Of a stretch of 37,392 bases of DNA, positions 35,495 to 37,238 are shown piece by piece. A program made the translations under genes and the position numbers. Origin of the DNA: Gemella bergeri ATCC 700627 (GTDB lineage: Bacteria; Bacillota; Bacilli; Staphylococcales; Gemellaceae); the NCBI RefSeq assembly GCF_000469465.1, contig NZ_KI271858.1:1-37392 (forward strand), given 5' to 3'. Under the pieces are notes generated by a model that was not told where the DNA came from, did no database searches, and saw nothing but the letters and a program-made list of their open reading frames with translations. Numbering within the stretch: the first letter of the stretch is position 1; each line of letters opens with the position of its first letter.

Positions 35495-35523
35495 TTTCCA
35501 TTTAAAGCTGTCTATGATATAAT
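35495..35523 (+). promoter_or_regulatory. Promoter of the YtxH-like / LPQTG micro-protein pair
   Basis: TTTCCA (35495-35500), a 17-base spacer and TATAAT (35518-35523) with a TG extension at 35515-35516. AGAAAGGA follows before the ATG at 35568. Confidence 0.65.
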
Positions 35524-35567: not shown

Positions 35568-36152
35568 ATGTCAAAATTATCTAAACTTTTTGTTATTGGA
35601 ACCGGTATTGCGGTGGCAAATTATTACACAAAAAATCCTAATAAAATAGAAGAACATGCTGAATTTGTTAAGAAAAAATCTAAAGATTATTATGGTTATA
35701 CTAAGTGTATGATTAGCTATACTAAAAAAAATGGTATCGAAGATGCAGCTAAATATATGTATAATGATTTTAAAAACGTTGTGAATAAAACCAAGGATAA
35801 TCTGGAAAAAAGGTATAATAACGCCGTTGAGTATGGGAAAGAATTGTCTGAGAATGTTTCTCAAATTAAAGAACAAGCATGTGATGTAAAAGAATATTCA
35901 AAAGGATTGAAAGAGAACATTGCTATTGCAAAAGAAATCAGCGAAAAAACACAACCTGCACTAGATTCTTATAAAAAACATATGCAAACAACTCTAAATT
36001 CTATTAAGGATCAGGTAGAAAATATTAAACAAACGGTGGTAGATTCTCAAACACAGAAAAAATTAGAAGCATTTAAAAAGAATGCGATTGAAACACTAGA
36101 AAATGTTAAAGAACAAGTACAAACAGATGTACTACATAATAATAATAAATAA
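35568..36152 (+). CDS. YtxH-like helical protein
   Basis: A 194-residue protein with a short hydrophobic stretch near the start (KLFVIGTGIAVANYY, about 6-20) followed by long, charged, probably coiled-coil helices up to residue 190. This layout and the repeated spacing of hydrophobic residues recall YtxH/apolipoprotein-type envelope stress proteins. It has no signal peptidase site and no sorting signal. It is the first gene of a two-gene unit with the LPQTG micro-protein, 12 bases downstream. Function not known; membrane attachment by the N-terminal segment is inferred. Confidence 0.7.
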   Translation: MSKLSKLFVIGTGIAVANYYTKNPNKIEEHAEFVKKKSKDYYGYTKCMISYTKKNGIEDAAKYMYNDFKNVVNKTKDNLEKRYNNAVEYGKELSENVSQIKEQACDVKEYSKGLKENIAIAKEISEKTQPALDSYKKHMQTTLNSIKDQVENIKQTVVDSQTQKKLEAFKKNAIETLENVKEQVQTDVLHNNNK

Positions 36153-36164
36153 GAGGTATATTAT

Positions 36165-36317
36165 ATGGAACTATTATCTACTAGCACCCTTCCACAAACA
36201 GGAGAAATAGCTAAAAATTACGGAATTTATATTGGTATTGTAATCATTATTCTCGTTATAATTTTTCTTATTTGGAGAAAAATTAAAGACAACAACGATG
36301 AAAACAAGCAAGATTAG
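36165..36317 (+). CDS. 50-residue micro-protein consisting of a sortase signal
   Basis: A short ORF starting MELLSTSTLPQTGEIAKN. It has LPQTG at residues 9-13, one hydrophobic helix at about 21-37 (IYIGIVIIILVIIFLIW) and the basic stretch RKIK with a charged tail. That is a full cell-wall sorting signal but with only eight residues before it and no signal peptide. AAGAGG sits eight bases before the ATG. It follows the YtxH-like gene by 12 bases and its stop codon lies in a strong terminator. The layout predicts an N-out membrane protein from which sortase could link a 12-residue peptide. It could instead be a relic of a larger surface gene, but start, ribosome site and frame are intact. Confidence 0.65.
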   Translation: MELLSTSTLPQTGEIAKNYGIYIGIVIIILVIIFLIWRKIKDNNDENKQD

Positions 36318-36339
36318 TTTCTTGCTTGTTTTATTTTTG
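36301..36339 (+). terminator. Terminator after the LPQTG micro-protein gene
   Basis: AAAACAAGCAAG (36301-36312) and CTTGCTTGTTTT (36321-36332) pair perfectly over 12 bases with an eight-base loop, followed by ATTTTTG. Confidence 0.92.
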
Positions 36340-36380: not shown

Positions 36381-37238
36381 CTATCTTTTGTTATTTTGAT
36401 ACGCTTTAACCGCATTATCTATTTCTGTTTCTGTTTCTTTTTTTATTTTTAAAATTTCATCTTTTTTAGTTGCTTTATCTATTCTGTCAAAAGCTTGTAA
36501 TCTAATTTTTTTTAATTTTTCCACTAAATTATTATAATCTGCTTCAAAAGACTCTTCACCTGTTAGAAGGTTTTGTTTATGTACTTCTCCTAATGATTCT
36601 AATTTCTTATTAGCATAATCATTTAATTCTTTTTCTACATAGAATTTAAATGGTACAACTGGTTTAGATAATTCTTTTATAACCTCATATCTCACTTTAT
36701 TGATTTGTGCATCAGTTGTTAATGAAGAAAGTTTTTCTATTGCTTCTTTTTCAATTTTTTCCAAATTTTCTAATGCATTTTTTCTCTCTTCTTCCGTTAG
36801 AGATTTCATTTTATTTATTTTTTCTTTTTGGTATTTAATTTCTTCCATTAATCCTTTTGCAAAATTTTTAGCTTTATCATTTTTAAAATTTTTTAAAGAT
36901 TCTAGTCTTGATTCTTCATGGAACTTATTGTCCAATTCTAACAATTTATCAAAATCATCTTCCGTATCAATTTTTTTTCTATATTCCTCTTTTCTTTTTT
37001 CACTTAAACCTGTTTTATTTAGTTCCTCTTTTGACGCATTTCTATGTTTTATTAATTCTTCGCCTGTTAATTTTTTACTGCTTTGTTTGCCAAGACCCGA
37101 TTGAGTTACTGCTGTATCAGTAGTGTTCGCTGCATGTGCTTCAACTGCACTTCCTCCGATTGCTACTCCCAATCCGACTAAAACAGAAGCTACTCCTATT
37201 TTATATTTTCTTATAGAAAATTTTTCTTTATTTCTCAT
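36381..37238 (-). CDS. YSIRK-signal secreted helical protein without a sorting signal
   Basis: A 285-residue exported protein. MRNKEKFSIRKYKIGVASVL begins a classic YSIRK-G/S signal (FSIRK..GVASVLVG), with cleavage likely after AHA at 36. The mature part is charged, lysine- and glutamate-rich helices with loosely repeated units (LTEEERKNALENLEKIEKEA; DRIDKATKKDEILKIK), like GA/DUF1542 helical repeats of surface proteins. The C-terminus AVKAYQNNKR has no LPXTG, membrane helix or basic tail, although YSIRK proteins are usually wall-anchored. The start is the ATG at 37238 with AGAGGA; the in-frame extension upstream runs over the promoter. The ligand is unknown. Confidence 0.85.
   Translation of the reverse strand: MRNKEKFSIRKYKIGVASVLVGLGVAIGGSAVEAHAANTTDTAVTQSGLGKQSSKKLTGEELIKHRNASKEELNKTGLSEKRKEEYRKKIDTEDDFDKLLELDNKFHEESRLESLKNFKNDKAKNFAKGLMEEIKYQKEKINKMKSLTEEERKNALENLEKIEKEAIEKLSSLTTDAQINKVRYEVIKELSKPVVPFKFYVEKELNDYANKKLESLGEVHKQNLLTGEESFEADYNNLVEKLKKIRLQAFDRIDKATKKDEILKIKKETETEIDNAVKAYQNNKR

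Follow-up and report, generated by a model that had tools for sequence, protein, structure and literature searches.

A conserved Gemella microprotein gene suggests a cargo-free sortase substrate

Introduction

Sortase is a major enzyme in relation to virulence and biotechnology, and ordinary sorting signals reach the membrane by means of a signal peptide. Hall is said to have described, in 2019, a circuit in Streptococcus gordonii that involves C-peptides and the kinase SGO_1180. Two reports present SGO_1180 as a kinase that senses the membrane LPXTG C-peptides left by sortase (PMC11502775, PMC11326707), and the C-peptides of that circuit derive from full adhesins. Among known mini sortase substrates are the CscD proteins, LPXTG proteins that are described as extremely short, with 90-140 residues, that carry a Sec signal peptide and a spacer of 40-60 residues before LPXTG, and whose genes lie in csc/WxL clusters (PMC1534035). 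This group probably corresponds to the family modelled as NF053819 (EF2685/EF0750). In addition, the NCBIfam model NF058583 (LAXTG motif-containing small protein) has 54 positions, and thus curators have already noticed proteins that are scarcely longer than a sorting signal.

Here we describe a gene whose product is reduced almost entirely to such a signal. A preliminary description of this gene had claimed that no system of its form was known. This holds for a sortase substrate devoid of both signal peptide and cargo, given that the open-access literature searched contained no signal-less or cargo-less LPXTG microproteins, no association of YtxH with sortase and no dedicated protein regulator of sortase of such form. 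However, CscD and NF058583 are recognized mini substrates, and to that extent the claim was too broad.

A 50-residue sortase signal downstream of a helical protein gene

The window, by which we mean the whole stretch of 37,392 nucleotides analysed from Gemella bergeri ATCC 700627 (contig NZ_KI271858.1), contains an ORF that is evident from the ORF list and translation and encodes the 50-amino-acid microprotein MELLSTSTLPQTGEIAKNYGIYIGIVIIILVIIFLIWRKIKDNNDENKQD (Table 1). The sequence bears out its anatomy as first described, with an ORF-specific ribosome-binding site and ATG, an LPQTG motif preceded by only eight residues, a single helix and a basic tail, and inspection of those eight residues revealed no signal peptide. 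Thus, the sortase A substrate features present are the motif, the helix and the basic tail, whereas export would have to proceed without a signal peptide. Cleavage between T and G is predicted to release 12 residues.

Table 1. Coordinates of features at the microprotein locus
Feature	Position	Strand	Basis	Remarks
Candidate promoter of the two-gene unit	35495..35523	+	Consensus scan	TTTCCA-17-TATAAT, extended -10
Partner protein gene	35568..36152	+	ORF	194 aa, all-helical, weakly YtxH-like, weak N-terminal hydrophobic stretch
Shine-Dalgarno site	36151..36156	+	Sequence	AAGAGG; 8 nt upstream of ATG; overlaps stop codon of partner gene
Microprotein ORF	36165..36317	+	ORF list and translation	50 aa
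N-tail	36165..36188	+	Translation	MELLSTST, 8 residues; sequence and length vary among relatives
Sortase motif	36189..36203	+		LPQTG; LPXTG in 10/11 Gemellaceae orthologues
Transmembrane helix	36219..36275	+	Hydropathy	Residues 19-37; Kyte-Doolittle 2.89
Basic/mixed tail	36276..36314	+	Translation	RKIKDNNDENKQD; probably cytoplasmic (positive-inside rule)
Intrinsic terminator	36301..36332	+	RNA fold	Bidirectional; 5' arm formed by last codons and stop of microprotein ORF
YSIRK/DUF1542 protein gene	36381-37235	-		284 aa; no LPXTG anchor

The microprotein exceeds the cut-offs of two general models for sorting signals, scoring 28.5 bits as a protein and 27.9 bits in a genome scan against the NCBI LPXTG model TIGR01167 (cut-off 15.9 bits) and 22.5 bits against Pfam Gram_pos_anchor PF00746 (cut-off 20). 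Its score of 30.8 bits against NF053819 falls short of that model's cut-off of 47, and it therefore does not belong to this family as defined. Although CscD/EF0750 proteins are likewise unusually small LPXTG proteins with closely similar sorting signals, the Gemellaceae microproteins have no signal peptide, place only 6-8 residues before the motif rather than the long CscD spacer, and have no csc genes in view nearby. The proteins of NF058583 are similarly barely longer than a sorting signal, but their motif differs, and this model was not among the matches listed for the window microprotein.

The partner gene ends 12 nt before the microprotein gene, and the two likely form a two-gene operon, because a plausible extended -10 promoter precedes the partner gene. 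The promoter candidate matches 10 of 12 consensus positions, which is weak on its own since the chance frequency in this region is nearly as high. The terminator is strong (-18.9 kcal/mol, z -4.95). Thus, co-transcription with the upstream gene, as originally proposed, appears likely, but the description of that gene as YtxH-like needs to be qualified, given that its product scores 16.2 bits against Pfam YtxH PF12732, under the gathering cut-off of 37.5. An AlphaFold model of the partner is all helix and of low confidence (pLDDT 52.5), so its fold is uninformative.

In the window the microprotein ORF is in frame with the stop codon of the partner gene, and we considered whether a fusion of the partner to LPXTG might arise by read-through. 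This was rejected, because the intergenic gap ranges from 12 to about 105 nt in relatives and the phase is not conserved. Among the neighbourhoods read, no kinase adjoins the microprotein locus, and no two-component system or other reader of C-peptides is linked to it. The convergent gene for a YSIRK signal peptide and DUF1542 protein has the same arrangement in a close relative (G006), an arrangement not shared by the other relatives read.

Conservation and loss within the Gemellaceae

Intact orthologues are present in 11 of 15 Gemellaceae genomes (G000-G007, G010, G011 and G013). These encode proteins of 42-52 amino acids that begin with their own ATG, preceded at a short distance by a GAGG-like site, and that align at the start methionine, the sortase motif, the tyrosine and tryptophan positions and the basic tail, with a conserved KNYGxYIG...W pattern. 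In all 11 carriers the gene is located directly 3' of the same helical partner gene, and the genes beyond this pair differ between the two Gemellaceae genera. Close pairs give pN/pS values of 0.06-0.20, and those of the partner gene are comparably low. The window gene differs from its counterpart in G006 by four synonymous and three nonsynonymous changes over 31 and 119 sites, and a second pair (G005 and G002) by eight and two, respectively. Given such small counts per pair, we rely on the concordance among several pairs and on the conservation of the start codon and the ribosome site.

Finding the short frame unbroken in this position in 11 of 15 genomes, with low pN/pS, goes beyond what chance would produce, and we conclude that the ORF is a real coding gene. 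The preliminary description had made this depend on whether its length, its start and its location behind the helical gene are conserved and on a bias towards synonymous change, and both expectations were borne out. It had also warned that the frame might prove to be the 3' end of a normal LPXTG protein; this was never the case in the relatives read, where upstream stops led us to reject the idea. Another short LPXTG-like frame in the same genome does resemble the C-terminus of a larger protein.

The partner gene is found in all 15 genomes, including the four that have no intact microprotein gene. One of these (G008) retains, after the helical gene, a remnant that was read by eye as ILPVKDREAIIDYNIYNIVIIILITFFLLKNIKK, in which the start codon is gone and the TG of the motif is destroyed, and this copy is a decayed pseudogene. 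Since this genome has a sortase and 22 LPXTG-type signals and yet carries a decayed copy, a working sortase does not by itself make the gene necessary, and it is dispensable in at least one lineage. Nothing recognizable is located downstream of the helical gene in the other three (G009, G012 and G014). The last of these has LPXTG signals and no sortase was found in it, although its assembly is 66% complete. Outside the Gemellaceae set, no further short frame strongly similar to the window microprotein was found in the Staphylococcales.

Sortase motifs and the presence of sortase

The motif is LPXTG, with Q, N or H at the variable position, in 10 of the 11 Gemellaceae orthologues, and LTNTG in the remaining one (G013). 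Ordinary sorting signals of the first genus are LPXTG, apart from one LAQTG in G008. Those of the sister clade are mostly LSNTG or LSKTG (G010), LTKTG (G011) and LSNTG or LSSTG (G013), with a few LPNTG, LTNTG and LANTG signals. Thus, LTNTG is within the motif range of the sister clade and is still sortase-like, and we rejected the possibility that it reflects lost sortase recognition in a genome whose ordinary signals are LSxTG. The other two orthologues of this clade keep the classical LPXTG. The prevalence of LSNTG, LSKTG and LTKTG over LPXTG in these three genomes (loci L280-L305, L170 and L175) is an observation in its own right and points to a natural shift in sortase motif, with an intact SrtA in the alignments for G010 and G013.

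A PF04203 sortase is present in all 11 microprotein carriers. Two genomes (G009 and G012) have LPKTS signals, no detected PF04203 sortase and no microprotein. This pattern, which comes from few and phylogenetically related genomes, agrees with dependence of the microprotein on sortase A. The LPKTS(A) signals in these two genomes occur at nine loci (L168, L169, L174, L178, L181, L185, L188, L192 and L194), and the genomes did not match a fragment of Gemella SrtA either; their sortase is either divergent or missing through a gap in the assembly.

A strongly hydrophobic helix at a fixed distance from the motif

Ordinary Gemella LPXTG proteins share the motif, helix and basic tail of the microprotein, but have large ectodomains and weaker and shorter helices. 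The maximum Kyte-Doolittle value over 19 residues has a median of 2.57 in the microproteins; for ordinary Gemellaceae sorting signals, of which 38 were compared, the median is 1.63 (Mann-Whitney p about 1e-6, which is indicative only because relatives are not independent). From the leucine of the motif to the first basic residue there are 29 residues in all 11 orthologues, whereas ordinary signals have 24-30, mostly 25-27. An N-out signal anchor would be consistent with the positive-inside rule here, given a helix of this hydrophobicity, a short N-tail that is close to neutral and a C-tail that is basic. The hydrophobicity and fixed spacing would therefore suit self-insertion without a signal peptide, and the N-out topology suggested initially appears plausible.

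Stand-alone short forms in the Lactobacillales

A search of 395 Lactobacillales genomes for a ribosome site and ATG followed directly by LPXTGE yielded stand-alone forms of 35-43 amino acids in eight genomes from three families, and a reversed control pattern gave zero among the matches listed. Examples are MLPQTGEVIMNWLPYIGIALVVVVVFLLFKKKKSNDDEEQDEQ, MLPQTGEIIKNWLPWIGLAIILIVANVAWFFKYRKKK, MLPNTGEKIMSALPWIGGAIIVIAVLIYLYKSNKK and MLPQTGEAVTWSLVVIGLIVLVAGIALILKDKNGKH, the extreme form being only Met, LPXTGE, a helix and a basic tail. One form matches NF058583 weakly (18.1 bits, cut-off 65). Among five related species, pN/pS is about 0.1 in diverged pairs, and near-identical pairs are uninformative. 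Neighbours vary and include an OppA-like gene with pepT, the end of an opp operon, and glmM with cdaA-like genes; no helical partner gene was seen beside these forms. Two unrelated microgenes (L202 6801-6911 and L112 4546-4677) both adjoin opp oligopeptide-transporter genes, one of them together with pepT, and this link is perhaps a coincidence.

Part of the likeness between the Gemella and Lactobacillales forms comes from their belonging to one subtype of sorting signal, and therefore common descent is not established; the two may have converged. In G229, from the same Lactobacillales genus, an ordinary frame of 120 aa that includes a signal peptide ends in LPQTGEIIKNYGFIGI... A mini sortase substrate in G545 (L133) has a signal peptide and about nine mature residues before LPNTGE, which places it between the CscD-like proteins on one side and the cargo-free form on the other. 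One Lactobacillus match (L086) was rejected as an ordinary 577-aa LPXTG protein. A phage or plasmid origin was likewise rejected: phages gave no match for the window protein, plasmids gave none for a Lactobacillales form, viral contigs likewise gave none, and none of 13 viral contig matches to the M-LPXTGE DNA pattern encodes such a membrane protein.

Proposed mechanism and alternative explanations

We judge it to be nearly an even call that the conserved microprotein is a self-inserting, cargo-free sortase signal with a regulatory role exerted through sortase occupancy or through its C-peptide, as far as such a role can be read from comparative sequence data. By the rules for membrane proteins, the short N-tail would cross the membrane without a signal peptide to give an N-out/C-in topology, which would place LPXTG where sortase A works. 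Sortase A would then form an acyl-enzyme with the microprotein, for which STSTLPQTGEIA is a candidate substrate peptide, and would join to lipid II a stub of 10-12 residues, or of five in the Lactobacillales, while a C-peptide of Gly-Glu, helix and basic residues would stay in the membrane. With so tiny a stub and a C-peptide left behind, the purpose would most likely be regulatory. The output might be sortase engagement itself, by occupancy, tuning or competition, the last in line with the competitor or decoy role suggested in the preliminary description, or a C-peptide read by a membrane partner, as SGO_1180 reads adhesin C-peptides. The microprotein would in the latter case be a dedicated C-peptide precursor, although the Gemella locus has no linked kinase, and the S. 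gordonii circuit is an analogue in mechanism rather than a relative. The Gemella helical protein may be the C-peptide reader or a co-regulated client.

The linkage to the helical protein gene could instead indicate that the microprotein is a small membrane partner of that protein, needed for its assembly, anchoring or stability, with the sortase motif having no other role than processing or turnover of the complex. The constancy of this linkage in 11 of 11 carriers despite differing other neighbours, the invariant helix geometry and the conserved KNYGxYIG...W pattern all fit such a partnership. However, four genomes have the partner gene without the microprotein, the Lactobacillales forms lack an adjoining partner, and the motif is kept with a variable X, as sortase recognition predicts. 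On balance we regard this explanation as unlikely, though it deserves serious weight.

It is improbable that the N-terminal peptide, MELLSTSTLPQT, whether linked to the wall or released, is itself the product and acts as a surface or signalling peptide. N-tails are alike within Gemella (MNLLSxxTLP) and some Lactobacillales forms adjoin opp peptide-transporter genes, but there is no opp linkage in Gemella, and the N-tail varies across 6-8 residues (MNSLYNT and MKLLAR, for example) and shrinks to a lone methionine in the Lactobacillales. Since the wall-linked part is as short as MLPQT there and variable in Gemella, what is conserved is probably the sortase signal embedded in the membrane; and since M-LPXTGE starts occur beside unrelated neighbours, the piece joined to the wall cannot be the product that all forms share. 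Thus, a 12-residue peptide on the wall, one of the outcomes originally envisaged, is less well supported as the point of the gene.

Slightly more doubtful still is the idea that the microprotein is a usual mini-LPXTG surface protein like CscD/EF0750 which lost its signal peptide and is now slowly decaying. NF053819 is the top subfamily match, a graded series leads from a signal peptide with a long spacer down to about nine mature spacer residues, and the G008 copy has in fact decayed. Nevertheless, the score is below the model's cut-off, purifying selection across species is strong, the geometry is fixed, and the helix appears suited to insertion without a signal peptide. Finally, a chance ORF or non-coding conservation of a terminator or 3' UTR can be set aside almost entirely, for although the 3' end of the ORF overlaps a terminator stem, synonymous bias and a start, Shine-Dalgarno site and frame kept in 11 genomes contradict it.

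The regulatory reading can be widened to a class of cargo-less sortase substrates without signal peptides that regulate sortase, as decoys or as sources of C-peptides, in the Gemellaceae and several Lactobacillales families. We offer this extension as possible but distinctly tentative.

Significance

The Gemella gene points to a sortase substrate that has no cargo and would act upon the sortase pathway and not as a wall protein. If this is true, a sorting signal can insert into the membrane and meet sortase without a signal peptide, and the microprotein would test C-peptide signalling as a general principle. A natural cargo-free substrate would also give an intrinsic means of controlling sortase activity.
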